A stretch of DNA of 64,000 bases. Origin: Poseidonibacter parvus. Lineage in GTDB: Bacteria; Campylobacterota; Campylobacteria; Campylobacterales; Arcobacteraceae. The notes under the pieces were generated by a model, which saw only the letters and a program-made list of their open reading frames with translations, did no database searches and had not been told where the DNA came from. The stretch lies in contig NZ_CP019070.1 of NCBI RefSeq assembly GCF_001956695.1, positions 992,001-1,056,000 of the forward strand, read 5' to 3'. The position numbers and the translations under genes are program-made. The number at the start of each line of letters is the position of its first letter. Positions within the stretch are counted from its first letter, which is position 1. Positions 7,113 to 60,809 of the stretch are shown here, piece after piece.

Positions 7113-7319
7113 ATGAGTAATTTTAATAATGAACCAACAAACGATAAAATTGAAGATTATAATGGAAAAGAATCACCAGAAAAAAGAAATATTGTTAGAT
7201 TAGTAGTAATTCTGATTTTAATAATAGGAGCTTTTTTTGCTTACTTAAAAACAACATCTTTACCAAGTGATTATATAGGTACTCCTGAAAACCCAGGTAT
7301 TAATACTAGTAAAAATTAA
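7113..7319 (+). CDS. Small single-span membrane protein
   Basis: 68 residues: a charged N-terminal tail (about 27 residues), one hydrophobic segment (VRLVVILILIIGAFFAYLK, about 28-46) and a short polar C-terminus. A good ribosome site (AAAGGATAAAAA) precedes the ATG, and a strong terminator follows the stop. No family recognised; topology suggests the tail is cytoplasmic and the short C-terminus periplasmic. Confidence 0.65.
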   Translation: MSNFNNEPTNDKIEDYNGKESPEKRNIVRLVVILILIIGAFFAYLKTTSLPSDYIGTPENPGINTSKN

Positions 7320-7357: not shown

Positions 7358-7558
7358 AATTAATCTTGTGTATTCATCATCCCCACAATGACTTTTCTAC
7401 TATAAAATCTACATAGCCTATTTTAAGGCTACAAGTCCTATTAAGTAGCATATACAAGTTTTTTAAGTGTTCATCTATTAACCCCTTTTAACTCCGTTAA
7501 AACTATATAAAATCTATTTTAGGGTATAAATAGGGTATAAAAAATAAGGGCACTTCTG

Positions 7559-8701
7559 ATGATAAAAACAAAATACACTGGCGTGTATTATCGAGAGAAC
7601 CAAAATAAAACTAAAACATTTTACATTAAGTACAAGATTAAAGGTAAACAGCAACTTAAAAAGATTGGAACTAGTGCAGAGGGAATAACAGCTGCATATG
7701 CTTCTAAATTAAGAGCAAAAGAAGTTTCTGTTGATAGATTAAAAGATGATGCTCCATTTGCTAGTATTGATAAGAATTTGACTTTTGATGAATCTTTTAA
7801 CTTATACTATGAATACTCAAAATATAATCAAAAAGATTACTATACTAATTTGAAAAGATATAACAAGCATATAAAAGACGAAATAGGGCATATGCCTTTA
7901 GCCAGAATAGATAAAAGAGTAATATCAAATCTAAAAAAAGTTTTTTTAAGTAAGGTAAATGATAGAACTAAAAAACCATATGCCCAAGCAACTATAAATC
8001 ACTTCTTTGATTTAATTAGATCTGTTTTTAATTATATTATTAATGAAAAAAGTTTAAACCTAATAAACCCAGCTAGTAGCAAGTCATTAAAGAGATTGAA
8101 AGTTGATAATAAAAGAGAAAGATATTTAGAGCTTGATGAAATAAAGGTTCTATTTGAAGAAGTTGTAAAAGAGTTTGATAGAAAGTTTCAGCATACAGAT
8201 GTGAAAGTAAAAATATTAAGTTTTTTAATGTTAAGCTTTTCAACTGGCGCTAGACTTGGTTCTGTAACAACAATAAAAAAACAAGATCTAAATTTCAAGC
8301 AAAAAACCATACTGATTAAAAACCATAAAACAGGTAAAACATATACAGGATATATTCATCCTAAATACGAAGACTTTTTATTAAAGAGGTGTAATGACTT
8401 AAAAATAAATGACTATATTGTATCAGGTACTAAAGAAGTTTATAAACAGCCAACTATTAACTATCATCTAAAGCCAATACTTGATAAACTTTTTAATAAA
8501 GGATTAACTTCAAATGATTCACAAAACAGAGCAGTGATACACACTTTCAGACACACATTTGCTTCTCACCTCGCAATAGATGGGACACCACTTTATACTA
8601 TAATGAAATTAATGAATCATGAAGATATAAGTCAAACAATAAGATATGCAAAGTTAAGTTCTGACAATGGATCTGTAAATGTTTTTGGTTTACAGTTCTA
8701 A
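7559..8701 (+). CDS. Phage-type tyrosine integrase
   Basis: A 380-residue tyrosine recombinase. Residues ~1-60 resemble an arm-type DNA-binding domain (TGVYYRENQNKTKTFYIKYK), ~65-170 a core-binding SAM-like domain, and ~180-380 the catalytic domain. The catalytic residues are present: Arg in STGARLGSV, Lys in KNHKTGKTY, HTFRHTFASHL (His-x-x-Arg), the histidine in MNHEDISQT and the Tyr in TIRYAKL. It should drive integration and excision of the neighbouring island. No tRNA or tmRNA gene could be found next to it as an obvious attachment site. The stop overlaps the tail of the convergent small gene by four bases. Confidence 0.92.
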   Translation: MIKTKYTGVYYRENQNKTKTFYIKYKIKGKQQLKKIGTSAEGITAAYASKLRAKEVSVDRLKDDAPFASIDKNLTFDESFNLYYEYSKYNQKDYYTNLKRYNKHIKDEIGHMPLARIDKRVISNLKKVFLSKVNDRTKKPYAQATINHFFDLIRSVFNYIINEKSLNLINPASSKSLKRLKVDNKRERYLELDEIKVLFEEVVKEFDRKFQHTDVKVKILSFLMLSFSTGARLGSVTTIKKQDLNFKQKTILIKNHKTGKTYTGYIHPKYEDFLLKRCNDLKINDYIVSGTKEVYKQPTINYHLKPILDKLFNKGLTSNDSQNRAVIHTFRHTFASHLAIDGTPLYTIMKLMNHEDISQTIRYAKLSSDNGSVNVFGLQF

Positions 8702-8949
8702 ATATCCAGCACTTTTACTTGTTTATTGATTATTTGCTCTGCAATAGTAACTATACTATAAAGTGGTTTACTCCTTTGCTTTCCATTAAGTCTAGTAAAG
8801 GGCAATCCAGTTCCATTGTTTCTTGCATTTTCAAGAGCTTTTTCTGTAAGACCTAAAACTTCTGAAACTTCCTTTGGTTCTAAAGTTAGTTTTCCGTATT
8901 TTGTAAATAGTAAATCTACTTGAAATTTGATTTTGTCTTTATCATTCAT
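8698..8949 (-). CDS. Small excisionase-like helix-turn-helix protein
   Basis: 83 residues. The middle part (LEPKEVSEVLGLTEKALENARNNGTGLPFTRLNGKQRSKPLYSI) has the pattern of MerR/excisionase-type winged helices (AlpA-like, HTH_17): a helix-turn-helix followed by a basic wing. Such proteins commonly sit beside an integrase and act as recombination directionality factors or prophage regulators. It is tail-to-tail with the integrase, overlapping by four bases. Role is inferred from shape and position. Confidence 0.6.
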   Translation of the reverse strand: MNDKDKIKFQVDLLFTKYGKLTLEPKEVSEVLGLTEKALENARNNGTGLPFTRLNGKQRSKPLYSIVTIAEQIINKQVKVLDI

Positions 8950-9730
8950 ATTTCTTCTTTCTTGACATTTATTTTCTTTTTACTTTGATAATTATTGGTA
9001 AGTAAACATTAAAATTGTATAAAGATTTATGTGCAATATAATGCGTATGAAATATACTATACAATTAAATATCCTCTATTGAGTTCCTGAATATGCAATT
9101 ACTATTGCTAAATGTGTTATAGTAACTTTACTTTTTAATAATAGTATACTTCTACTAGTTATAAGTGTTAGTATTTTTCCTTTAACTTTGGAGTTCAACA
9201 CTAATTCTAAAAGTATTTGGCTAACCCCGAATTTAGCTGTTAAAGATACTTTACGTTCATTTGAAGTTTTTTAAATTATCTCATTTTAATAGAATTTTAG
9301 AGTAGCAATTTTATCTTTTAAATTTTATTTAGACTTAGTACATTTTAATATTTTAGAGACTAGGGAAAAGTGTTGGGATATGGGATGTTTTAAATAAAAA
9401 TATCACAATTAATGTAATTGGATTTAGTGTCCCGTTTTATTTGCTTATCAACTCTCCTCTATACCCTTTAAAATAGATGCTCTGTAGAATTTTATAATAC
9501 TTACTTTTATTCTTAGTCCTTGAAAAATCCTTGCTTCGTATGCCATTTAATAAGCTTAATAAAAACTAACATTTTATAATTAGTATCTTACTTTAAGTTA
9601 ATAAATTAATTTTAGTTTTTTTAGTATTACAATATATGACATTTTTAATAAATAATATACATTATTCATCGTTTTCTATCAAGTTTTTTTATATTTACTT
9701 AGCTTACAAAATCATATATACTTGTTCTAT
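8950..9730. other. Gene-poor stretch after the integrase
   Basis: About 780 bases with no convincing gene on either strand. The only short open frames (for example 9448-9546 on the minus strand, 32 codons) lack ribosome sites. A stretch at about 9,110-9,275 (plus) is open for around 55 codons but has no start codon and no recognisable product; it may be a remnant. Base composition is very AT-rich. Confidence 0.5.
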
Positions 9731-9832
9731 AAATATTTAGAGCTTGGCAAGCTACATATCTGCTTGGTAGATTTATCACTTGATAGATTTGCTAAGCTCT
9801 AAGTATTTTATTTAGATGTGTAACTTGCCAAT
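9731..9832. repeat. Nested, mutually exclusive inverted repeats
   Basis: Positions 9731-9750 pair with 9789-9808 over 20 bases with two mismatches (core TTAGAGCTT / AAGCTCTAA). The segment 9745-9760 (TGGCAAGCTACATATC) can instead pair with about 9816-9831 (GATGTGTAACTTGCCA). The two pairings compete for 9745-9750, as in a switching RNA or a folded recombination site. Confidence 0.5.
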
Positions 9833-9942
9833 TTCATAATCTAATTTTAATACAAATCCAAAATATCTTAATTTAAATACAAATTATTGAAGCCACTTAA
9901 GTGTTGGAGAATATTTTTATGTTTAAAAAAAGGAGGTACTCT

Positions 9943-10650
9943 AGCAATTCTTAACATGTTAGTTTGGCGACTACAAGAATTGCTAAAATGATTACTAATC
10001 ATAACAAATATCTAAATAAAAATCAACCTATATTTATTACATTCTCAAAATCTACTTAATTGTTGAGAATAAAGTAATGTCTAAAATAACTAAAAAAAGC
10101 GGTAGAGTATAAGGACTGAACAGTAAGCGAAATCTTGCGATAAAAATTAAAAACTTATACAAGGCAAGTAGCCACTTGTCGTATAGAGGGTAATTCCCTT
10201 TTAGTAAGGTTAGCCAAATAAGAGACCAAATCAGCAAGGTGTGAGGAAGTGTATGTGGTACGATTCACCTTGGAGATGCCCGTTCTACTATTTTAATAGT
10301 AGCAAGGACACTCCTATAGATTTACCAGTTAAGATATAAAATAGAGGTTTTTAAATAAACAAAAATGTTTTACTGGATTTAATTAAATTTGTAGGTTATT
10401 AGATAAGGGGAACCGTCTAGTGTAATTGTGTCGTAGATTAAGAGCTGAACAATAATCTACTAAATGTCGAAGCATAAGTCCTGCAAAAGCCGTGTCATTT
10501 GCAAATTTTTAGACTAACTTGTCCTGTACTATTTTGTTAAATACAAAGTAGTACAAGGGCAAGTTGTCTCCACTCCAGAGCCATTCCCTACCATATCATT
10601 CTTTAGCCCAAGTCGAACAGAAAGATTACCCTAAAAGACAGGAGACAACT
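9943..10650. ncRNA. Candidate large structured noncoding RNA
   Basis: About 700 bases with no supportable gene but dense base-pairing potential. Stems seen: 9943-9952/9975-9984 (AGCAATTCTT); 10041-10048/10063-10070; 10156-10160/10181-10185 enclosing 10165-10169/10174-10178; 10235-10241/10266-10272 (CAAGGTG); 10285-10292/10295-10302 (CTACTATT); 10325-10329/10372-10376; 10433-10440/10453-10460 (GTAGATTA); 10516-10524/10557-10565 enclosing 10526-10537/10543-10554; and a perfect long-range 10 bp stem 10562-10571/10641-10650 (AGTTGTCTCC). GC content also rises above the surroundings. Ornate RNAs of this size (GOLLD, ROOL) occur in mobile DNA, but I cannot assign a known class. Strand is undetermined. 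Confidence 0.55.
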
Positions 10651-10822
10651 GAGACAAAAAAGGTGGAACTATTTATTAATATAAATAATAAATGATTTGA
10701 GCTTTATAATAACTATGATTTTCTCTAGCAAAAATATTTAATACTTTATTCCAAACAGATATTAAATTCTAAAAGAGTGTCATTTCATTAAATAAAACAA
10801 AACAATAAAGGATAGTATACAA

Positions 10823-11206
10823 ATGAAGATTTTTTATAAAAGAACAGATCTTACAGAACTTGAATATAATAATTTACTTAAATGTATAGATTTTGATAAA
10901 TTAAAAGAAGTTGAAAAACAGTATAAAGATTATGAGTTTTTTAAAGGATTTAATATAATAGAAAAATTATATAATCCCAAGAATATAGAATATAGTTCTA
11001 GTAAATCTACGGCAGCATCTAAAGCTACTAAAGCTAGAAGTAAAAAAGTTAAATATAAAATAAATATAGCAATTTAAATACTTCAAACAGAAAAAAAAAC
11101 TATAACTCATTATGCATTAGCTAAAAAATCTGGAGTAAGTTTTAACACTGTGAAAAAACATATATCTGATAATAATTTAGTTTCATTAAATGAAATGAAA
11201 CAGTAA
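10823..11206 (+). pseudogene. Helix-turn-helix gene interrupted by an in-frame stop
   Basis: One frame runs for 127 codons with a single internal TAA at 11075-11077. The first 84 codons include a charged helical part and SKATKARSKKVKYKINIAI; the codons after the stop read TEKKTITHYALAKKSGVSFNTVKKHI, a helix-turn-helix. The two parts together match a common arrangement (basic helix KATKARS..K, then ITHYALAKKSGVS..TVKK) in small DNA-binding proteins of mobile elements. So a single CAA-to-TAA-like change, or another substitution, has probably cut the DNA-binding end off. A good start context (AAAGGATAGTATACAAATG) precedes it. Alternatively the 84-residue protein is functional by itself. Confidence 0.6.
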
Positions 11207-11282
11207 AGAGTATCCTACATATTAAATATATTAATAATCTTTGTTCCATATTTCCTTAATGTTTGTGGAACTTTACAGTTTT

Positions 11283-11360
11283 TACTTTTTGAACACTTTG
11301 TGGAACATCGAAAGCCTGTAATAACTGACTTAGTTCCAAATATAAGAGGTTGTTGACAAC
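11283..11360. repeat. Module-boundary repeat, left copy
   Basis: Shares TACTTTTTGAACA (11283-11295), a TTTGTGGAACAT-like centre and TCCAAATATAAGAGGTTGT (from 11335) with the segment at about 28,946-29,035, in the same order and spacing. The two copies bracket the copper island. The rest of 11207-11457 holds no gene. Confidence 0.6.
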
Positions 11361-11457
11361 GAATGTGAATTTGATATAAATAAGCGATAATAGTATATTT
11401 ATATCAAATTTAACAACATTTAAAATCAATCACATTTTATTAAATGTGATTGATTCT

Positions 11458-14400
11458 TTAATGTGATAAATCACAATCTGCCATTTTCCCTTTTTGTTTT
11501 ATTGCCAAAATATAAAATATTGCAGGTATTATAATTAGTGTTAGAAATGCTGAACTTATCATTCCTCCAATCATTGGAGCAGCAATTCTTTGCATAACTT
11601 CACTACCAACACCATTTATATACATAATAGGAATTAGTCCACCTAAGATTGCAAAAAGAGTCATTAGTTTTGGTCTAAGTCTTAATACAGCACCTTTATA
11701 AATAGCATGAAATATATGAGTTTTATCTGGCTCTATACATTTTTCTTTTAATTCAAGCATTGCTTCATGTAAATAAACTAACATTACAATTGAGGTCTCT
11801 GCAGCAACTCCTAGAAGTGCAAGAAAGCCAACAATAACTGCAATAGAAATATTAAAGTTTAAAAAGTCAAGATAAAATATTCCACCTGTTAAAGCAAAGG
11901 GAAGAGTAAAGAAAATAATCACCGTATATGTTAAATTTCTAAGTGCAAAATATATAAGAATAAATATAATTACAAAGGTTAAAGGAATAATATATGTTAA
12001 TCTTTGCATTGCTGATTCTAAATACTCACTTTGCCCTGCCCATTCAAAGTAGAACCCTTCAGGAAGCTTAATATCCGTTAAAAGTTCTTTTGCTTCATCT
12101 TTATATTGTTTTGCAGAAATACCATTTTTAGGAGTTATATATATAAAGTTTACATTTAAAGCCTTTTCTGATTTTATTACAGAAGGTCCCTCTTCATATT
12201 TTAAATTTGCAAACATTTCTAGAGGTTGAAATCCTAACTTAGTTTTTACTTGAAGATTACGCAAAGTTGTAATATCTTCTCTTTGAGTTGTTTCAAATCT
12301 AAGAGAAATAGGATACCTTTCAAGACCATCTAAAAATGTAGATACTTTTGCTCCGGCAACACCTAATGAAACTGTAGACAATACATCATTTTTTGTAATT
12401 CCAAAACGTGTTAACATTTCTTCTTTAACATCAATATTTAAGTAATAACCAGAGTTAATTTTATCAGTTGATACAGAAAGTGTTTTATCAAACTTCTTTA
12501 ACTTTTGTTCAATTACTCCTGCAGTTTCTTCTAACTTATGATGATCATTTCCATAAAGTTTTATACCAAGAGGCGTTCTAATACCAGTAAGAAGCATATC
12601 AATTCTTCCACGAATAGGATAAGTCCAAGAGTTAATTAACCCTGCTACTTGAAGTTTTCTATCCATCTCTTCCATTAGTTTTTTATAGGTCATTCCTTCA
12701 CGCCATTGATCTTCTGGTTTAAAAGTGATAATAGTTTCAATCATAGCTAAAGGTGCTGGATCTGTAGCTGTATCAGCTCGTCCTGCTTTTCCAAATACAG
12801 TATCAACTTCAGGAAAGGATTTTAATATCTTATCTGTTTTCTGAGTTAACTCACGTGATAAATCTACACCAATTCCATACGGAGTTACTGGCATATACAT
12901 AAAAGTCTGTTCATTCATCATAGGCATAAATTCCCAGTTTTGTTTTTTATAAACTGGATATGCAGCAATTATTGTTCCTATAAAAACAAGAACAATTAAA
13001 TATCTAAATTTAAGTGAAAGTTTTAAAATTGGGGAATAAAGTTTTATAAAGAATTTATTCAATAAATTTTTATCTTCTCTTAATATTTTCCCTCGTATAA
13101 AAAAGACCATAAGAATTGGTACAATTGTAATAGAAAGAAAAGCTCCTGCAATCATAGCAAATGATTTTGTAAATGCTAATGGGGTAAAAAGTCTTCCCTC
13201 TTGACCTGTTAAAGCAAAAATTGGTAAAAAAGATACAACTACTAGAACAAGTGCAAAGAATATTGGACGACCAACTTGTTTTGCTGATTTTATTATAATT
13301 TCTGTTCTTTCTTCATTTGAGATATTTTCTTTTCCTTGAAGATACTTATGGGCATTTTCAACCATAACAATAGTTGCATCAACCATTGCTCCAATTGCAA
13401 TTGCAATTCCTCCAAGGCTCATAATATTTGAACCCATTCCAAATGCTTTCATTAGAAGAAATGTGATTAATACTGTTATTGGTAAAGTAATAATTATAAT
13501 TAAAGCACTTCTAAAATGAAATAAAAATAATCCCGTGATTATCATTACAATAATAGACTCTTCTAAAAGTGTATTTTTTAATGTATCAATTGCTTTATCA
13601 ATAAGAGATGATCTATCATATGTTTCAACAACTTCAACACCTTCGACATTTAGTGTTTTAATTTTCTCTTTTACAGCTTTTATAACTGCATATGGATTCT
13701 CTCCATACCTTACAACTACAATACCACCTACAGTATCACCTTCACCATTTAAATCAGCCATACCACGTCTATTAGAAGATGTAATATTAACATCAGCAAT
13801 ATCTTTTATTTTAAGAGGAATTGAGTTGTTTGTTTTTATTGTAATATTTTCAATATCAACTACTGATTTTAGATATCCTTTAGCTTGAACCATATGTTCA
13901 AAGCCATTTTCTAAAATAATTCTACCACCCTTTTCATCATTATTTTTTGTAAGTGCTTTTTTTACTTCTTGAATACTTAAATTGTATTGAACTAATTTAT
14001 CCTGGTTTAGTGTAATTTCATAGTTTTTAATAAAACCACCAATTGAAGCAATTTCACTTACTCCATCAACTCCAAGTAAGGCATATTTATAATAATAGTC
14101 TTGCAAAGTTCTTAGCTCGTCAAGTGATTTTGTATCAGATTTTAAGGCATATTCATAAGCCCAACCAACACCTGTTGCATCTGGTCCAATTGCAACATTT
14201 ACACCTTGAGGAAAAGTTCCCTGTAATTGTGATAATTGTTCTAGAATTCTATTTCTTGAATCGTATAAATCTGTCCCATCTTTAAATATAATATATATTA
14301 AAGCATTTTGAAATGAACTCATCGCCCTTACAGTATCAATATTTGGCAAAGACATTAAATTTGAGATTAAAGGATAAGATACTTGTTCCTCAATTGTTTT

Positions 14401-47304: not shown

Positions 47305-48015
47305 ATGTTAAAATCAATATTACTTTTCTTTCTACTTTTTTCATTTGCTTTTAGTCTTGGCAATGAAAATATATCTAGCTTTTCTAAGTCCAAAAAAATA
47401 CTTAATAAAAAGATTTATAATACAGAAAAACTACGTTATGCATTTTATTCAAGTTGTAAATATAATTATGAAAAATACAAATACGATAGTGGAAAAGAAA
47501 GATGGAAACTCATAGTAAATAAAGAGAGTTGTGGATACATACCGAGAACAAAATCAAATAGAGCTAATTCTATTGAATTTGAACATATAGTTCCTGCTCA
47601 TGCCTTTGTACAATATTTGCCATGTTGGAAAAATGGTGGTAGAAAAAACTGTAGAAAAGTATCTGAACAATTTAGACTAATGGAAGCTGATTTATACAAT
47701 CTTGTTCCAGCAATCGGAGAATTAAATGCAGACAGAAGTAATTTTACTTTTTCAGAACTAGAAGGGGAACCTAGAAAATATGGAAAAGTTGATTTTGAAG
47801 TTGATTTTAAAATAAGAAAAGTAGAACCTAGAAATGAGATTAAAGGACAAATTGCAAGGACATATTTTTATTTTCATAAAACATATAATTTGCCAATTAG
47901 TAAAAAGCAACTACAGCTTTTTAATGCTTGGAACAAACAATATCCAGAGTCAGTCCAAGAGTTGAAGGTTAATAAAATAAAAGAAAAAATTCAGGGGAAT
48001 AAGTTTACATATTAA
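47305..48015 (+). CDS. endA: Intact endonuclease I carried by the element
   Basis: 236 residues with a signal peptide (LKSILLFFLLFSFAFSLG). Catalytic motif EFEHIVPAHAF (His94, His99), then WKNGGRKNCRK, EADLYNLVPAIGELNADRSNF and a basic C-terminus, all as in secreted or periplasmic EndA nucleases that degrade DNA non-specifically. Cysteines C51, C76, C107/C116 could form disulfides. It is just inside the left junction, one base before the first recombinase gene, and is a different sequence from the split host copy (they differ throughout, e.g. EFEHIVPAHAF against EHVMPAHNFG). Confidence 0.9.
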   Translation: MLKSILLFFLLFSFAFSLGNENISSFSKSKKILNKKIYNTEKLRYAFYSSCKYNYEKYKYDSGKERWKLIVNKESCGYIPRTKSNRANSIEFEHIVPAHAFVQYLPCWKNGGRKNCRKVSEQFRLMEADLYNLVPAIGELNADRSNFTFSELEGEPRKYGKVDFEVDFKIRKVEPRNEIKGQIARTYFYFHKTYNLPISKKQLQLFNAWNKQYPESVQELKVNKIKEKIQGNKFTY

Positions 48016-48016
48016 A

Positions 48017-49351
48017 ATGAAAAAAGCCACACTGCCTAAACTAGATATTTATACTCCATTAAAGAACAATAATCAAATTCTTAATGAAGACTACGATATC
48101 GATAACTATTTACATTATCCAATTTTAATAGATGAAGATGGTATTCCGTGGAAGTATGGAAATTTATATCTACTATCAAAGTTAAAGAATTACAAAAAAC
48201 CATCTAGTAAAACATTAGACTCTATTGCTAATGATCTTAAAGATTTTATGTTATGGTGTAAAGAATCTGATATAGATTATTTAAAAGCAAAAAGAAAAAT
48301 TCTAACACCTACTTATAAATATAGAGGCTATTTGCAATCATTGTATGAAAATGAAAAAATATCTTCGTCAACAATTAAAAGAAAAATTGGATCAGTAATA
48401 GGGTTTTATAGATACTTAATCAACGAGCAAAATATAGAATTTAAATTTCCTTTGTGGGAAGAAGGTTTTACTTCAATAACTTATCTTGACAATAAGGGAT
48501 TTAGCCAATCTAAGAAAATCACAACTACAGATATTGCAAAGGTACCACTAGTTCAAAATCAAGAAATTACGAACGAAGAATTTATAAAAGATGGTGGAAA
48601 CCTAAAACCTCTAACAGAAGAGGAGCAAATAACAATTGTAAAAGCTTTATTGCAAATTGATAATAAAGAGATGACTTTAGGCTTTTTAATATCTATGTTT
48701 ACAGGAGCAAGAATAAGTTCAGTATATACATTGAGACTTAAACATTTTAATAAAAATATTGATTCTGAAAGTAAAGATGATATTCCAGTGAAAATTGGTT
48801 TGGTTACAGATTGTGATACAAAAGCTGATAAACAATATTTGCTTTATTTTCCAACATGGTTGTACCAAATGATAAAAATATATATACAATCTCCTAGAAG
48901 TCTTCTTAAAAGAGAGAAAGCAAAACATATATTTGAAGATTATGATAAACAGTATATTTTTTTAAATAATAGGGGAAGACCATATTATGTATCGAAATAT
49001 GATCCATATAAACAAGATTATAGAGATGTCCCAAACGGTAATACGGTAAGGTTATTTATACTAAATACATTACAAAAAGTGTTAAAAAAGGATAATCAAA
49101 ATATCAATTTTTCTTTTCATGATTTAAGAGCTACTTTTGGGATGAATACATTAAATAGATTATTGCCATTAGTTAAAGATGGAGAAATCGATATAAGTTT
49201 TGCACTTCATTATGTTAAAGAACGAATGGGTCATAATAGTCTTATAACAACAGAGAGATATTTGAATTTTCAGAAATTAAATCAAGTAAAACTAAAAATC
49301 CAAAGTGGATTCGAAGAGCAACTAGCAAAGTTAATACTCAATGAATTATAA
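48017..49351 (+). CDS. Tyrosine recombinase 1 of the element
   Basis: 444 residues. Core-binding domain at about 55-155; catalytic domain with all key residues: Arg in FTGARISSVYTL (~230), SFHDLRATFG (His-x-x-Arg, ~375), MGHNSLITTERYLNF (His and Tyr, ~415-425). So it is probably the active strand-exchange enzyme. It begins one base after endA and overlaps recombinase 2 by 11 bases. Size and neighbours fit the first recombinase of Tn554-like or GmtY-like sets (family-level inference). Confidence 0.88.
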   Translation: MKKATLPKLDIYTPLKNNNQILNEDYDIDNYLHYPILIDEDGIPWKYGNLYLLSKLKNYKKPSSKTLDSIANDLKDFMLWCKESDIDYLKAKRKILTPTYKYRGYLQSLYENEKISSSTIKRKIGSVIGFYRYLINEQNIEFKFPLWEEGFTSITYLDNKGFSQSKKITTTDIAKVPLVQNQEITNEEFIKDGGNLKPLTEEEQITIVKALLQIDNKEMTLGFLISMFTGARISSVYTLRLKHFNKNIDSESKDDIPVKIGLVTDCDTKADKQYLLYFPTWLYQMIKIYIQSPRSLLKREKAKHIFEDYDKQYIFLNNRGRPYYVSKYDPYKQDYRDVPNGNTVRLFILNTLQKVLKKDNQNINFSFHDLRATFGMNTLNRLLPLVKDGEIDISFALHYVKERMGHNSLITTERYLNFQKLNQVKLKIQSGFEEQLAKLILNEL

Positions 49352-51212
49352 AAAAATAGAAATAAATTATATTAGTATTGATGAAGTAGAAAAACAATAT
49401 ATTGATAAAAGTCTATTATATGATAGTTTAGGTATAAAACTTAATCGCAATTTTGCAATATGTCAAATTCTTTATCCTCGCTCGATTAAAAAATCAAACT
49501 CAAAATTTGTATTAGTTGAATCTGAAAATTATGATCAAAGAAGATGCAATATATTGAATTATTTAATTGAAAATATTGTAATTAAGAATAGACAACTTGG
49601 TTTAAAACCTGCAACTACAATGAGAAGAATAAAAGAAGTTAAGTACTTTATAGAATATGCTGATAATGCTAATTTAAATTTTATTAATGATATCAATCAA
49701 GCTATAAAAGCTTTTTTAAGATATACTAAATATCTTCAATCATCTATCCAACAAAGTAAATATGCTCAAAGAACAGCAAGTAGATTGCAAAAAGAAGCCA
49801 TAAAGTTACTATCACATTTATTTTGTGTCGAGCCTATAGAAATAAAACAATCAACTACATTGATTCATTCAGGTAATGAAACTAGAACAACAGTGGCAAT
49901 GAATGAATCTGATATTCAATTTTGTTTTAATTTTTATCATGATTTATTTGAAAGTATTTATGGTTTTATCATTAATAATGCTAACTATCCATATAAAGTA
50001 AAAATTGCAAATACTAATTATTGGTTTCTCCCTTATACAAAAGGATTAATTGCAAATGAATCAAAAGCAATGAAGAATAGTGCTTTTAATTGTCAGACAG
50101 GTAAAGTTTTGGCATATGAAGACTTATATCATGAACCATATTTAAATATTGATAAACAAAAAAGAGATGGATATAAAAGAGCAATAAGACTATTCAATCA
50201 ATATTTAAAAAATGCAAATAGCAATAGTTTTACTGATGAGCGTTTAGCTATAGCACAAATAGGAGTTCAAGCCTACTATATTTTGTTTTTGTTTACAACA
50301 GGAATGAATGATTCAACTGCATCTACATTAAAATGGAATGAAGACTATACTGTTCAGAAAGAAATGCAGGATTTTAAAAATATAAAATATCGTGCAGGAA
50401 ATAAAATTGTTGAATTTCAAATTGCTTCAAAATTTTTAAAGCTTTTTAAAAATTTCCTAGATTTAAGAAAATATTTACTTCTAAACAATTTTAAGAGTGA
50501 CTATTTGTTTTTTCAAGGCTATGGTGAAAATTCTTACATTTCTACTACAGCAAAAAGTGGTAACTTGTCATCTTCAATAAATAATCGAATAAGTAAAATA
50601 TTCAATACGGAAAAGTTGAAATTTTTAACATCAAGAACAATAAGATTATATAAAACAAAATATTTAATAAAGCATCATGGAGTAATTCAAGCAGCAAATA
50701 CAGCTCAAGTAAGTGTAGTGACATTACTAAAGCATTATACGGGGGAAAATGAGGAAACTAGTGCAGAGCAAATGACAAAATATTATGATGATTTAAATAA
50801 ATCTGTATTAATGCATTCGCCAAATGATAAAGCAATTACTGCTGGACATTGTTCGTCTTTTACTAATCCTGATAGTGATATGAAATTAAAATCTATAAAT
50901 ATTGATTGTGAAAAAAGTGAAGGTTGTTTATTTTGTAAACATTTTCGATGTCATGCTGATAGTGATGATGTAAGAAAATTATTGAGTCTTCTATATATTA
51001 TTGAAGAAACAAAGAATAAAGCTGATTCAATTGAACATTTCAATTCAATTTACTTAGTTGTTATTGACAGAATTAATTATCTCTTGGAAGAAATCTCTAA
51101 ACACCAAAAGGATTTAGTTGAGAAAATTAGAGAAGAGGTTTTTGAACATGAAATATTATCCTATTATTGGGAAAAAAGATTAGAAATGCTTATAGAAATT
51201 GGAGTGTTATAA
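49341..51212 (+). CDS. Tyrosine-recombinase-like protein 2, catalytically degenerate
   Basis: 623 residues. The recombinase fold is visible, but active-site residues are changed: TTGMNDSTASTLKW in place of the usual TG-A/M-R motif (no Arg), TSRTIRLYKTKYL in place of His-x-x-Arg, and SVVTLLKHYTG for the last motif. A Cys/His-rich C-terminal segment (GHCSSF ... CEKSEGCLFCKHFRCHADSDD) probably binds zinc. Such a large, Cys-rich second recombinase is also seen in TnpB of Tn554-type elements. It may serve an architectural role. Overlaps its upstream neighbour; three bases to the next gene. Confidence 0.75.
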   Translation: MNYKKIEINYISIDEVEKQYIDKSLLYDSLGIKLNRNFAICQILYPRSIKKSNSKFVLVESENYDQRRCNILNYLIENIVIKNRQLGLKPATTMRRIKEVKYFIEYADNANLNFINDINQAIKAFLRYTKYLQSSIQQSKYAQRTASRLQKEAIKLLSHLFCVEPIEIKQSTTLIHSGNETRTTVAMNESDIQFCFNFYHDLFESIYGFIINNANYPYKVKIANTNYWFLPYTKGLIANESKAMKNSAFNCQTGKVLAYEDLYHEPYLNIDKQKRDGYKRAIRLFNQYLKNANSNSFTDERLAIAQIGVQAYYILFLFTTGMNDSTASTLKWNEDYTVQKEMQDFKNIKYRAGNKIVEFQIASKFLKLFKNFLDLRKYLLLNNFKSDYLFFQGYGENSYISTTAKSGNLSSSINNRISKIFNTEKLKFLTSRTIRLYKTKYLIKHHGVIQAANTAQVSVVTLLKHYTGENEETSAEQMTKYYDDLNKSVLMHSPNDKAITAGHCSSFTNPDSDMKLKSINIDCEKSEGCLFCKHFRCHADSDDVRKLLSLLYIIEETKNKADSIEHFNSIYLVVIDRINYLLEEISKHQKDLVEKIREEVFEHEILSYYWEKRLEMLIEIGVL

Positions 51213-51215
51213 ATC

Positions 51216-53126
51216 ATGGTTGAACAGAAAATAATATCTAACTCTACTTATTGGTATGATAAGGTAGGTAAAACACAGGAATTTTCAAAAGTAAATGATT
51301 TAACAATTATTTCAGCAGATAACACTGGAAATACTATTTCCTATTTTTATGATGACATATGGGACTTAAGCTCATATTCCATCAAGTCAACTAGAACAGA
51401 TAGTAAATTAGATTTTAGCCAAATTGAAAAAGCCCTTAGAAAACAAGCAAAAACTATTGCTTATATGATTTTAATGTATGGTAAAAGTCGCTTTGGAAGA
51501 CAACTTGAAGCTAAGACAATTAAAGGACAATATTTTAGAGGGTGTATTGTTCCTATATCAAAATGGCTTACAGAAAAGAATTTAAATTTTACTGACTTTT
51601 TTTCAGATGAGAGTATATTGTTTCAATATGTTAAATATCAAATTTCAATGAAAAAAGATTTTATACACTTGCCAGCTTTTTTTAAATTTTTGTCAAATAC
51701 TTACCATGAAAGTTTCCATTATAAAATAGTAATCAACAAAAAAACAAAAACTTATTTAGATGAAGCAAGAAAAATTAGAGAAAAAAGTAAAAAACAAACT
51801 CCTATTATTCCATCAAGAATATTATCTTATGCAATAGAAGTAAGGTGGAAGCATATTGAATATATTTTTAATCATATTGAGGAAATATCAAATTTTATTG
51901 AGAATTATATGAATCAAAAAGCAGATCATGAAAAACCTCAAAAAAAATTCCTTAATGCTATAAATCTTTATAAACTAGAAAATTTATTCAAAAAATATAA
52001 TATTAATAATCGTGCAGAATTTATCACATTTATAAAGCAAATACAAGCAACTTCTAAAAATTTAATTCATACTTATAGTGGAATGAGAAGTGAAGAGGCT
52101 TATAGTTTAAATATAAATTCTTTTAAGCAAGACGGTTCCACAAGTTTTATAATTGGATTCACAACAAAATTAGATGGAAGACAAAAAGAAACTAGATGGG
52201 TAACTTCAAACAAAATCAAAATGATATTTGAAATTTTTCAGAAAATAAACATTTCAATGCTCAAAAAACATAAAAATTATATAAATTTGAATAATTCTCC
52301 TTTATTTCTTTCTGTTAATTTTTTAAGATTAAATAATATGGAATCATTATCATTAAGTAGTTTAGATGCTAATAATGAGCTATATTTAGATGAAAGTAAA
52401 GTTCTACTAACACCAAAAGATTTGGAAGAATTAGAATCAATTGACCCTTTTAGGAATTGGACAGAAGAAGACAAGTTTCAACTTAATTCTAGATGGCACT
52501 TTGCAACTCATCAGTATAGAAGATCTTTAGCAGTCTATTCAATAAAAAGTGGTCTTGTTAGTATTGGAGCATTGCAAATTCAATTAAAACACTTATTTAG
52601 AGATATGACATTGTATTACTCAAATGGAGCTACGAATAATGTTAGTATTAATAAATTGTATAGTGAAGATTTAATTAAAACACTTAAAGATACTAAACCA
52701 GAAATTAAAATATTAGAATTTATAAAAAACGTAATTTTTAGTGATGAAAAATTATTTGGAAGTTATGGTAAAAAAATAGAGTTAAAAAAATCTTCAATAA
52801 CAAGTAATTATACATCATATATATTAGAAGATAAGCAGAAAACTCTAAAATTATTCCGAAAAGGCGATTTGTATTACAAAGAAACTGCATTAGGTGGATG
52901 TATCTCAGTAGATCCTTGTGATTCTTTTTTAACAAATTCATTTACAGAGTGTTTTTCTTGCGATTGTGGTATTTTAAAAAAGAGTAAAATTGAAAAAGTG
53001 ATTACCAAGGAAAAAAATCTTTTGGCACAATTCAAACATGAATCTATTGAATATAAAACAATTAATATGGAATTAAATCAGTTGAAATCTTTATATCAAA
53101 AAACTAATGGAGAAAATAATGAGTAG
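51216..53126 (+). CDS. Tyrosine recombinase 3 of the element
   Basis: 636 residues. Catalytic signature present: TYSGMRSEEAYSL (Arg), TKLDGRQKETRW, ATHQYRRSLAVY (His-x-x-Arg), LKHLFRDMTLYYSNG (His and Tyr). C-terminus again Cys-rich (LGGCISVDPCDSF ... FTECFSCDCGI), a likely zinc-binding tail as in recombinase 2. Ribosome site TTGGAGTGTTATAAATC. Overlaps the coiled-coil gene's start. Confidence 0.82.
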   Translation: MVEQKIISNSTYWYDKVGKTQEFSKVNDLTIISADNTGNTISYFYDDIWDLSSYSIKSTRTDSKLDFSQIEKALRKQAKTIAYMILMYGKSRFGRQLEAKTIKGQYFRGCIVPISKWLTEKNLNFTDFFSDESILFQYVKYQISMKKDFIHLPAFFKFLSNTYHESFHYKIVINKKTKTYLDEARKIREKSKKQTPIIPSRILSYAIEVRWKHIEYIFNHIEEISNFIENYMNQKADHEKPQKKFLNAINLYKLENLFKKYNINNRAEFITFIKQIQATSKNLIHTYSGMRSEEAYSLNINSFKQDGSTSFIIGFTTKLDGRQKETRWVTSNKIKMIFEIFQKINISMLKKHKNYINLNNSPLFLSVNFLRLNNMESLSLSSLDANNELYLDESKVLLTPKDLEELESIDPFRNWTEEDKFQLNSRWHFATHQYRRSLAVYSIKSGLVSIGALQIQLKHLFRDMTLYYSNGATNNVSINKLYSEDLIKTLKDTKPEIKILEFIKNVIFSDEKLFGSYGKKIELKKSSITSNYTSYILEDKQKTLKLFRKGDLYYKETALGGCISVDPCDSFLTNSFTECFSCDCGILKKSKIEKVITKEKNLLAQFKHESIEYKTINMELNQLKSLYQKTNGENNE

Positions 53127-53524: not shown

Positions 53525-56500
53525 ATGTATAAAAACAGAGAAAGGCTATTAGGTTTGGAAATAAAAAGAAGTGCAATAACTTATGCTGGATATGAATATC
53601 AAACTTTACAAGGGCTTTTAGTATTAGCTTATTGGTTAGATAATCCTAATGCTTTTAAAAGAGTTTGTTTTGAAGCGGATCAAGATGATATAGCTCAAGG
53701 AATTGATGATATTGTTATTGAGCGTCAAGATAGTAAGATTGACTATATACAGGTAAAATTTACTCCATCCCCTTACAAAGAAGAAAATTCATTTAGTTGG
53801 GATTGGTTACTAAAAAAAACAGGTAAAACAGCTAGGTCAAGATCTATATTAAAAAAAATATTTGATGCCGTAAAAGAAGTTCCACTAGAAAAAAGAGGTG
53901 ATATAACCTTATTAACAAACAAAATTCCAAATCGAGAAATTGAAAATTGTTTGAAAGATGGAAAGATCATATATGATTTTATAGGTCAAACTATACAAAC
54001 AGAGATAAAATCACAACTAGGAAATGAACATTTAGCTCGAACTTTTTTTGAAATACTTGATATTAAAGATACTCAGAAAAATTATCTAGAGTTATCACGA
54101 GAAGTTAGAACTGAATTAGAAAAACATTCTCTTAGTGATGGTATTGATAGATTGATTAATAGAGCTAGAGAATGGGCTAAACTTATAAATTATCCAACAG
54201 AGAATGGTTGGATAGAGTTGCATCATGTAAGAGAAATATTATCATCAAAAAGAGCAAAGCCAATACCTGAGTCATTTACTATCCCTGAAAACTATTGTCT
54301 TCCAGATAAAGAGTTTCATAATTTTCTATTGAACAAGGTTTCTAAATCAACTGGAGAAGTTATATCAATTAGCGGTGAACCAGGAAAAGGGAAAAGTACT
54401 TATTTAAGCTATTTATTTAATGAACTAGAAAGATTAGATATCCCAGTAATTCGTCATCATTATTTTTTACCAATTGATGATGGAACTCATGATAGATTAA
54501 GTTTTAATGTAATTGCTGAATCATTAATATTTCAGATAAAAAATGATTATAAGGAAGTTGACTCTATTTTTGATGATCCAGAAAAATTATATGAATCGTT
54601 AAAAAATTGTTCGGAGTATTATAAGAATCAAGAAAAACCATTTGTATTAATTATTGATGGTTTAGATCATGTATGGAGAGATAATCATAGAGATAAAAAA
54701 CCTCTTGATTATCTATTTAGAGAAATTCTTCCACTTCCTGATAACTTAGTTTTAATAGTAGGAACACAGCCTGTAGATGATGCATTACTACCTGATATTC
54801 TTCTTGAATATTCTCCTAAAAAAAGTTGGTTTAATTTACCTTCTATGTCAGCAGAATCCATATATGAATATTTAAATAGCCAAATTGCTTTTAATAGACT
54901 TTATATGAATTGTAGTAATGATATGATTGCAGAAGAAACTAAATCTATTTCAATTAAGCTATTTGAAATTACATTAGGCTATCCACTGCATGTAATTTAC
55001 TCCTGTGAATATATTGCAAATAGTGGTAATCCATTATCTATTTATGAAATAGATAAATTACCTCCTTGTGATGATAATAATATTGAAAGCTACTATACTA
55101 GATTATGGCGTAATTTAACACATAGTCAAAAAGATATACTTCATTTGTGTGCAGGTTTTTCTTTTATTTGGCCAAGAGATGCTTTTTCTGAGATTTTTGG
55201 TCAACCTAATAGTTATTCCAATTTAAATGCTGTTTCGCATCTTTTATATGAAGCTAAATCTGGAGTAAGACCATTTCATGAAAGTTTGATAGTCTTTGTT
55301 AGAAAGCAAACGGATCATATTGATAGAATTTTAGGTTTAGGTGATAGTGTATGTACTTGGCTTGATACTCAAGCTCCAGAGTATTTAAAAGAAAGTTGGC
55401 TATGGCTTTGTCAATCAAAAAGTGGAAATGCTCAGCCTTTAAGAGATGGTCTTTCAAGAGACTGGGTTATTGAAAGGTTATCAGAAGGATATAATGAAAA
55501 GCAACTAATACAATTATTTTCTAATGCTGAATCTATTGCTTTTAATGAGTTGAATTATTCTGAAGCATATAAGCATAGAGCACTAAAAATACGATTAATT
55601 AATGGTCCAGAGTTTCAAACTTGGAATCTTTCTCTTTTAAAAATATTATCTTTTAATTTATCCCCTGATTCATTAATTAATTTTGAGCTATCTGTATATC
55701 AAAACAATACTCCTAGAGAACTTGCAGTTTTATCAATTGCATTGTGGAATAGAAATGATTTTAGTAATGCAAAAATGATTGCTAATCAAGCCCTATCAAA
55801 ATATAGATCTCAAAGAAAACTTTATCAAAAAAGAAATAATGATGATGACACCATAGAACTCTTAGTACACGCAGGAGTTCTATCAGATGAATTAAATTAT
55901 GATAATATTTTTACTGAAGGTGTTTTTGAAAATTGGGATGAGTCTCTAATAACTGTCTTTACTAAAGCAGTTATTTATAAAAACGATATATCTCTCTTAA
56001 TTAAAGCTTTTAGTTATCTAATTGAATATAAAAGTGCCTATGAAATTGAATTATCCCTTCTTAAACAAAGTATTCTTGAAGAGTTTGATATTTTCTCTTG
56101 GGAAGAATTTGAATTAAACTATGAGCATCCAATGACAGAGTTTTATAAATTACTAATAGAAGAAGAATTTAATATAACTACTGATAATTTTCATGTGACA
56201 GATGGAAATTTTCCCTATGAATTAATAACATCTGTAAATTATTATGATTGGTTTTTTGAGTTATTAAGAATTAAACTTAGTGCTCAAGGAGATTTTTGTT
56301 GGTTAAATTTTCGGGCTGAAGAAAAACCCAGTGATACTACTTTTTTCTTAAATGAACTTACTGAATTGGCTAGTCTTATTGCTAATAACATAATAAATAA
56401 AAATAAAATGGATTTTTCTTCATTTTGTAGTTTATTAGAAACAGTATCTTTTTCTGAAGATATGAACTTTAGAATCAAGAGATCTATAATTTTATTTAAA

Positions 56501-60246: not shown

Positions 60247-60370
60247 TGGACAATTCTAAATTTGAAATTATTGTATTTACTAGATAAATGGACATGTTTT
60301 AAAATTTTAAAAGTAGGATTTTAATGTATTTTATAGCTTGTCCATTTTTTAAAATATTTTCGTATAATAG
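60247..60370. repeat. Right end of the inserted element with TGGACA/TGTCCA motifs
   Basis: TGGACA at 60247-60252 and 60289-60294 and, inverted, TGTCCA at 60339-60344; AAATGGACA and TGTCCATTT are a perfect 9 bp inverted repeat. The junction to host endA is at about 60,370. Similar to the left end in motif and arrangement. Confidence 0.55.
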
Positions 60371-60809
60371 GGAACATGTAATGCCAGCACATAACTTTGG
60401 TAAGCATTTACCTTGTTGGAATAAAGGTGGTAGAAAAGCTTGTAGAAGAGATAATACCTTTAGCGTAATGGAATCTGATATGCATAATTTAGTACCTTCT
60501 ATAGGTGAAGTAAATGGTGATAGATCTAATTATAGGTTTGCATCTAATAATCCAAGAATAGGGCAGTATGGTAATTGTGAATTTGAAGTAAGTTTTAAAA
60601 CAAAAAGAGCATATCCTAAAAAAGAAATTAGAGGAGATATTGCAAGAATATATTTCTATATGAGTGATAAGTATAATATAAGACTCTCAAAACAAGAACG
60701 AAGACTAATGGAAGTTTGGAATAAACAAGATCCTGTTGATAATTGGGAAAGAATCAAAAATAAAAGAGTTTTTAAATTACAAGGTACTATAAATAAGTTT
60801 ATTAAGTAG
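60371..60809 (+). pseudogene. endA: 3' part of the split endonuclease I gene
   Basis: From 60372 the frame reads EHVMPAHNFGKHLPCW, NKGGRKACRRDN, ESDMHNLVPSIGEVNGDRSNY, a basic linker and a normal end. It carries the catalytic His pair but lacks the signal peptide and N-terminal region, which lie at 46959-47219. The open frame in this window begins at 60324 with element-derived codons (YFIACPFFKIFSYNR); this is not a real EndA start. Confidence 0.85.

Follow-up and report, generated by a model that had tools for sequence, protein, structure and literature searches.

Positions 9731–10666 of the plus strand of the window, the whole stretch of 64,000 nucleotides of Poseidonibacter parvus DNA that was analyzed, probably encode a large structured RNA, which we assign to type A of an RNA family of this order that is not yet catalogued and is carried on integrative elements. 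Comparison of homologous copies demonstrated conservation of the sequence, two bodies with common 5′ modules, and a recurrent position by integrases and tRNA att sites. The true ends of the RNA and its transcription are inferred, there being no expression data.

The first-pass annotation had placed a folded noncoding segment at 9943–10650. A conserved sequence with a conserved fold is indeed present there, but the conserved unit of approximately 930 nt exceeds that segment: the 5′ domain with its pseudoknot had been missed, the start lies approximately 210 bases earlier, and the end is at about 10666. The annotation was right that the segment contains no gene; the sole ORF of at least 50 aa inside it has 61 codons and is on the minus strand. 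The placement of the unit at 9731–10666 rests on alignment A1, on pair counts, and on a fold z-score of −6.1. All of the parts described next are on the plus strand. A promoter-like site, TTTACT-17-TATACT, was found by scanning at 9694–9722 (G071, for example, has TTTACA-17-TATACT). Because the scan gave 17 promoter-like sites compared with 13.9 in shuffled sequences, such a site alone is not evidence. The unit begins with a 5′ stem (helix 1; 9731–9745 with 9794–9808) whose 15 pairs are invariant in the nine type A rows with letters; in type B, 5 of the 15 are compensated. A pseudoknot helix (9746–9761 with 9814–9829), supported by the pairing energies of its own arms, crosses this stem and is followed by a Shine-Dalgarno-like sequence, AAGGAGGT, at 9930–9937. 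The latter was read by eye, as were similar purine runs in most aligned copies of both types; it does not precede any conserved ORF. A small leader peptide (MFKKRRYSSNS-like, by eye) was dropped as a candidate, its start codon and length not being kept among homologues.

The next element is a hairpin at 9942–9985 with GTTTGGCGAC at 9962–9971 (helix 3, from the alignments), which has no two-sided change in type A and is represented by a different stem in type B. The type A core, GAGACCAA...GCCCG (10222–10306), is the part that was modelled for remote searches. The two-part hairpin described at 10516–10565 exists in the sequence, but the alignment consensus retains only its inner part as a hairpin (helix 20, two-sided changes in 7 of 13 pairs), the outer ACTTGT strand pairing with GCAAG at approximately 10302–10306. 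The long-range stem of 10 bp that had been proposed near the 3′ end was confirmed: 10562–10571 and 10641–10650 are exact complements (AGTTGTCTCC/GGAGACAACT), and this terminal stem (helix 21) is among the helices with the most two-sided changes (5 of its 15 aligned pairs; 81.3% of cells paired). Its strands read differently in G036 and G006, namely GTGTCACC/GGTGACAC, and were misplaced there by the alignment. The unit closes with a conserved 3′ tail, GAGACAAAAAAGGTGG (10651–10666), at which conservation ends sharply; the tails of remote type A copies are GAGATAAAAAAGATGG, GAGATTAAAAAGATGG, GAGATAAAGAAGATGG, and GAGACAAAAGGCGG.

Fold energies were compared with those of dinucleotide shuffles. 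The z-score was −5.3 for 9943–10650 and −6.1 for 9731–10666, and none of 20 shuffles was as good in either case. By part, it was −8.0 for 9731–9850 and −4.7 for 10515–10655 (none of 200 shuffles each), −3.1 for 9925–10000 (1 of 200), and only −0.8 for the core at 10222–10306 (38 of 200). The description of the segment as less AT-rich than its surroundings holds for five 200-base intervals starting at 10100–10500, with a G+C content of 0.315–0.39 compared with 0.185–0.285 in those starting at 9500–10000 and 10600–10800, but it fails for the first 150 bases of the segment, whose G+C content is no higher.

Covariation in type A was examined in A1, an alignment of 15 rows, using a composite structure of 165 pairs taken mostly from RNAalifold on the same alignment. 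Thirty-two of these pairs were changed on both sides, compared with 19.3 ± 2.4 in shuffles, and none of 500 shuffles reached 32. In addition, 95.7% of the cells paired, compared with 34–42% when partners were slid by one to three columns; that percentage is favored by this origin of the structure. No two-sided change was seen in 10 of the 21 helices (1, 3, 4, 5, 6, 8, 10, 12, 14, and 16), which rest on conservation or one-sided changes. Two sets of RNAalifold columns, 259–265/944–950 (the GGCGAC loop with the terminal stem) and 223–227/241–245, were excluded as incompatible with the terminal stem or with the GGCGAC hairpin, although they may represent alternative pairings. The truncated copy G097b was kept. 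Because rows were misaligned in the terminal stem (G036 and G006) and in the pseudoknot (G060, G090, and G068), the A1 counts are lowered there.

For type B (alignment A2), 103 of 133 pairs were counted after exclusion of RNAalifold pairs judged weak or conflicting (columns 32–36/91–95, 116–125/140–149, 287–289/988–990, 315–318/557–560, 640–643/705–708, and 917–920/930–933). Two-sided changes were found in 27 of the 103, compared with 13.4 in shuffles, a count that none of 500 shuffles reached; further pair types were not unusually numerous, 88 of 500 shuffles having as many. In the core alignments with remote members, which were fitted to covariance models, 11 of 22 pairs in type A and 13 of 25 in type B had two-sided changes (0 of 500 for both). 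An alignment that misaligned two third-family copies (A6) was replaced by a model-fitted one (A7). In homologues the changes preserve the stems, as the first-pass annotation had asked to be checked, with compensatory change in A1, A2, and both core alignments. These shuffle and slide controls are not equivalent to a phylogeny-aware covariation test.

In the pseudoknot the loop-side arm 9746–9761 pairs with 9814–9829, outside the first stem. Among 16 members with widely differing sequences, arms paired with their own partners at a mean of −23.6 kcal/mol compared with −9.6 kcal/mol across members, and for 13 of the 16 the best-ranked 3′ arm was their own. The arms were chosen by hand and cut around visible complementarity, so that the absolute energies are favored and the cross-member comparison is the test. 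Cells with G-U on the plus strand outnumbered those with A-C by 185 to 33 in A1 and by 112 to 16 in A2; this excess fits the plus strand as the folded molecule and is supportive only, because the structure prediction itself permits G-U. The fold covaries and includes a 5′ pseudoknot.

Homologues were sought in genomes that were species representatives, and the counts are therefore of species, not strains. BLASTN of the unit against 104 genomes of the bacterial family to which the window belongs gave matches in 21, and a type B query (299 relatives) added G062 and G069 of the same family for a total of 23, leaving 81 of the 104 without a match. Short BLAST matches (approximately 25–70 nt) were ignored unless their surroundings proved a longer copy. 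Type A, the type in the window, was present in 14 of the 23 genomes and type B in 9; among named records, the type A core pattern was found in Arcobacter and Aliarcobacter (five records), from which the family is inferred to be Arcobacteraceae. One strain available from a culture collection, Arcobacter cryaerophilus LMG 9065, has a type A core on its contig. Partial copies were also seen, one as a second copy in G097 (L044:8847–9279), where a type A 5′ part is followed by a type IV restriction gene, and one at a second place in G026 (L102), a 3′ piece of type B.

Covariance models of the cores were run on 398 genomes of the order. The type A model (R1) gave matches in 11, three of them outside the family (G209, G290, and G359), and the type B model (R2) in eight, two outside it (G343 and G305). 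Outside the family the models scored the matches only weakly (E 1.6e-5 to 4.5e-4 per genome), and E-values of short-calibrated models are rough. In the flanks, which are absent from the models, all five outside-family copies had a long 5′ hairpin with pseudoknot, and the three of type A had a terminal stem and then a tail. A model including the remote type A members G209, G290, and G359 (R3) found G572 and G513, which had not been used in building it, giving 3 of 220 genomes of the second family; the 5′ pseudoknot, core, terminal stem, and tail are present in both of these held-out copies. In the third family R3 added nothing to the two known copies (2 of 44 genomes). The covariance models thus reach two further families of the order, and the RNA is not confined to one genus. 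Phage and plasmid collections gave no match by distant BLASTN, and viral contigs gave none by exact pattern, a search that would miss diverged copies.

Within the window's family, types A and B have a common 5′ part and unrelated 3′ bodies. Local alignment scores were determined for 12 5′ modules and 9 bodies, with shuffles scoring approximately 15–19. The bodies were alike between families, the window's type A body scoring 35–50 against four remote A bodies and two B bodies scoring 34–49 against two remote B bodies; A and B bodies scored at the shuffle level against each other (14–21), and the remote A pair G209/G290 was also near it (20). The 5′ modules of A and B copies in the window's family scored 75–116, and only 30–45 with the diverged G062. 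In the second family, the module of G209 scored 42 against G343 and 52 against G305, that of G572 was weakly like these two (20 and 25), and that of G513 was not alike (15 and 15), a lack of likeness to its own family that we counted against the main reading. Modules of the window's family and the second family were at the shuffle level (12–18), and the third family's module slightly resembled that of the window's family (18–29). Because module and body scores disagree, modules and bodies have not simply co-evolved; judging by these scores, it is likely that parts were exchanged or that the 5′ part converged locally. In G047 a B body is combined with a type A-like tail at its end, and a basic ORF of 42 codons precedes the body. 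A 72-codon ORF follows the 5′ hairpin in G058, G036, and G006, and G093 has one of 88 codons where the 5′ domain was not recognized. Part of the unit may be translated in copies with an embedded ORF.

The copy in the window lies in an island of approximately 72 kb flanked by direct repeats, 1.0 kb from an integrase. The ORF at 7559–8701 (plus strand) is a tyrosine integrase (PF00589, E 1.4e-18), as the annotation's placement of the RNA beside an integrase requires. It starts 16 bases after the left copy (7517–7542) of a 26-nt direct repeat, TTTTAGGGTATAAATAGGGTATAAAA, whose exact second copy is at G000:C1:1071299. A candidate attL core, TGTATTCATCATCC, is at 7369–7382, and the same 14 nt occur at G000:C1:1071403. 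A similar sequence, gtgttcatcatcc, is present in the uninterrupted site of G006, G003, and G001, and the 14-nt repeat is closer to the uninterrupted site than is the 26-nt repeat; in G006, for example, the homologue of the gene at 7113–7319 directly abuts the flank found at 1071441 in the window's genome. A small ORF at 8698–8949 (minus strand) resembles the excisionase-like HTH protein of the L144 element (phmmer E 2.5e-5) and has no Pfam match.

Other features of the window were recorded. A 1929-aa ORF of the same island (53525–59314) has Cap4-nuclease-like and NACHT/AAA matches and is perhaps a STAND-type antiphage protein. Three consecutive ORFs of 444, 623, and 636 aa occupy 48017–53126; the first has phage-integrase matches and the other two no Pfam match, and the trio may resemble Tn554-type recombinase sets. 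Two ORFs of the Endonuclease_1 family are at 47305–48015 and 60324–60809, the profile match of the second being confined to the later part. At 10823–11200 an 84-codon ORF is followed by more matching sequence and looks interrupted, because the homologue in L032 is a single ORF of 122 codons. A long AT-rich hairpin at 11404–11476 scored as terminator-like on both strands.

The surroundings of the RNA were compared in 31 loci: 15 of type A in the family (one truncated), 5 of remote type A, 9 of type B in the family, and 2 of remote type B. Five integrases taken from the loci themselves were used as queries. An integrase was found within 2.5 kb of the RNA in ten loci (the window, L037, L041, L069, L100, L101, L142, L144, L145, and L146); four more (L034, L038, L039, and L040) bring the number to 14 within 8 kb. 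With 257 PF00589 matches in 30 genomes (8.6 per genome, or about one per 300 kb), we estimate the chance of an integrase within 2.5 kb at 2–3%. The ten loci are not ten independent events, because several are closely related. When the ORFs of at least 80 aa within 5 kb of the 31 copies were clustered, the integrase cluster had the widest occurrence (10 loci), the next clusters being present in six and five; no protein is therefore constant near the RNA. The position beside an integrase noted in the annotation recurs in part of the other loci; no related integrase was found in 17 of the 31 within the stretches read (10–19 kb; 25 kb of the window). The type A element of G290 contains a further long stretch that looks noncoding (L145:2500–3300), flanked by the integrase and the long ORF next to it; it is possibly another structured RNA.

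In 8 of the 31 loci a tRNA gene on the same strand precedes the RNA, whose start lies 210–451 bp past the 3′ end of that gene; the tRNA is for Glu (L040 and L044), Leu (L045, L046, L142, and L151), Gly (L047), or Met (L068). In L143 the RNA lies approximately 270 bases after a 3′ piece of tRNA-Leu. Repeats of the 3′ part of the tRNA were sought at 12 loci with a tRNA. Five elements of 4–8.5 kb carry the RNA between such repeats: L142 (approximately 4.0 kb; 38 nt exact within a longer near-copy), L040 (5.8 kb; 40 nt), L038 (8.5 kb; 21 nt), L145 (8.0 kb; 18 nt), and L146 (6.7 kb; 20 nt). No repeat was found in the examined stretches of L031, L046, L047, L068, and L151; L044 had only short matches (17 and 13 nt), and L045 had one of 13 nt, inside other tRNAs. 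In L031, L038, L040, and L044 the RNA occurs in the carB-greA/tRNA-Glu region with differing downstream neighbors (gene names assigned by eye), and this region is a recurrent insertion spot.

Such an arrangement leaves room for a function of the segment as DNA, in the form of a single-stranded origin, an oriT, or an att-flanking structure in rolling-circle replication or transfer, with any transcript incidental. We regard this as unlikely. The promoter-like and Shine-Dalgarno-like sites are conserved on the same strand, some copies have embedded ORFs of the same sense, and 930 nt or so with many helices is large for an origin; nevertheless, att sites and integrases are close in part of the loci, conservation stops sharply at the 3′ end, and covariation by itself cannot separate RNA from single-stranded DNA.

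The downstream genes bear on a role as a cis-regulatory leader or attenuator, which we hold to be very improbable. Two observations suit a leader: the first downstream ORF of at least 80 aa shares the strand of the RNA in 8 of the 20 type A loci and in 9 of the 11 of type B, and a terminator-like hairpin ends some type B copies. Against it, the other 12 of the 20 type A loci (and 2 of the 11 of type B) have that ORF in convergent orientation, in 11 of the 12 within 80 bp of the RNA end, and no downstream protein family is common to more than a few of the 31 loci. The criterion for a riboswitch or attenuator, a same-strand gene of one family directly downstream, was not fulfilled. The leader reading is weaker for type A than for type B. 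Downstream of type A the genes depend on the locus and encode methyltransferases, a type IV restriction enzyme, a type I specificity-like protein, or AAA proteins. PADLOC models matched 6 of 10 proteins downstream of type A, from 5 of 7 loci; the ten had been preselected for their appearance as defence genes. Relatives of the HTH, excisionase-like, and ParA-like proteins of the G209 element are also found downstream: all three at L036 and L037, the ParA-like protein at L034, the excisionase-like protein at L038, the HTH protein at L151, and the HTH and excisionase-like proteins at L069 of type B.

The sharp boundary at the tail GAGAYAAAAAAGGTGG, with unrelated DNA beyond it, would suit an RNA gene that serves mainly as an integration target, with integrases using its 3′ end for insertion in the way that they use tRNA genes. 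The tail was rejected as an att site, because the 17-nt tail pattern occurs once per genome in the 10 genomes having an exact match (of 104 searched), with no second copy as attR; moreover, the direct repeats that were found lie at other places, some of them in tRNA genes, and the RNA is internal to the element. This reading is already disfavored, and we give it hardly any credence. A relic without function is scarcely credible, and so is an intron-like catalytic RNA from a decayed element, for compensatory changes across families require long selection and no Rfam intron match was found, although partial copies exist in G097 and G026 and the 4-kb element of G343, whose 182-aa ORF without a Pfam match presumably resembles a TrbL-like protein, may be a deleted ICE.

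If 9731–10666 is the gene for a large RNA, as we prefer, the RNA would be transcribed from its own promoter, an inference made without expression data, and would fold into a multidomain particle without a dedicated protein, possibly a homo-oligomer as GOLLD and ROOL are; no data bear on an oligomer or a partner. It would act in trans for the element, for example on host factors or ribosomes, an inference for which there are no phenotype data, and its action would be timed to excision or transfer of the element or to phage encounter. The 5′ module would be the host-adapted part, because it is common to A and B copies in the window's family and different in another family. Working in trans as an RNA particle is inferred and is the weakest step. 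A more far-reaching proposal, which we put forward only tentatively and consider doubtful, is that the RNA together with the integrase is the hallmark of the element family, and that the RNA (as a particle), not a protein, provides a function in transfer, stabilization, or exploitation of a helper, with a host-tuned 5′ pseudoknot and a body in two exchangeable forms. Elements down to approximately 4 kb would then consist of att, the RNA, a little cargo (toxin-antitoxin or defence), the integrase, and a second att.

Covariance searches of Rfam 15 gave no match in the window at the gathering score, and only tRNA in L045–L049 and L142–L146. With E up to 5, there was no match to GOLLD, ROOL, HEARO, or introns in 9000–11500 of the window and none to GOLLD or ROOL in the type B copy L046. 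The weak matches at this threshold were to miRNA and Vibrio IGR families in the segment, and to miRNA, Vibrio IGR, sRNA, and plastid UTR families in the window and L046 together, all far below the cut-offs. The Rfam library includes both GOLLD and ROOL; membership in either is not supported, because neither covariance model was matched, and membership among group I introns, group II introns, or HEARO RNAs was rejected for lack of an Rfam match. According to the first-pass annotation, the segment was a candidate for an ornate RNA, new or so far unplaced, whose location next to an integrase resembles that of GOLLD and ROOL. The absence of any known class at the gathering score, the compensatory changes, and the recurrent association with integrases and tRNA genes support that proposal.

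To our knowledge, few bacterial RNAs of such size and complexity have been described. A further large-RNA family without recognizable relation to GOLLD or ROOL would be an independent case of association with integrases and tRNA attachment sites, situated in integrative elements and in cultivable Arcobacter-type bacteria. Its modular build, with a variable 5′ part and two bodies, predicts which part meets the host and which part works. GOLLD is encoded by phages and prophages, often near tRNA islands, and forms a closed 14-mer RNA nanocage; ROOL forms an ordered, RNA-only nanocage.

A literature search, which did not cover the supplementary data of Stav et al. (2019), found no description of this RNA. 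In the accessible part of that article, 38 intergenic regions of Arcobacter sp. L are reported, most of the novel ones unnamed and confined to the genus (PMC6429828); the RNA family described here, in contrast, spans more than one genus. It is one possible earlier sighting of part of the RNA, an overlap that this part of the article neither establishes nor excludes (PMC6429828). In the portions of two later surveys of the same kind that term look-ups could reach, the searched taxon names were absent (PMC11109978, PMC8632094). Phage ICP1 and its PLE satellites produce abundant noncoding transcripts, of approximately 800 nt in ICP1, according to the available part of another article (PMC7567579). 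Those transcripts are like the present RNA in being noncoding RNAs of mobile elements and differ in belonging to a Vibrio phage and its satellites (PMC7567579).

The closest comparison is with GOLLD and ROOL, whose functions remain open according to the excerpts available of a recent article (PMC12286853). As described there, many GOLLD members exceed 800 nt, have no known function, occur in neighborhoods of mobile DNA and tRNA genes, and consist of one conserved and one less conserved part (PMC12286853). The present RNA shares these features, the tRNA neighborhood in part of the loci, but it has no Rfam match, its 5′ modules differ between families, it has two alternative 3′ bodies, and it occurs in integrative elements with no phage match. 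ROOL, from the same excerpts, is large, is predicted to contain multiple pseudoknots, has no identified protein partner, and is often near tRNA islands (PMC12286853). The present RNA resembles it in large size, pseudoknot, lack of an identified protein partner, and, in part of the loci, tRNA neighborhood, and differs in having neither an Rfam match nor a phage match. As far as the analogy can be taken, the likeness of this RNA to GOLLD and ROOL is one of size, complexity, and setting.
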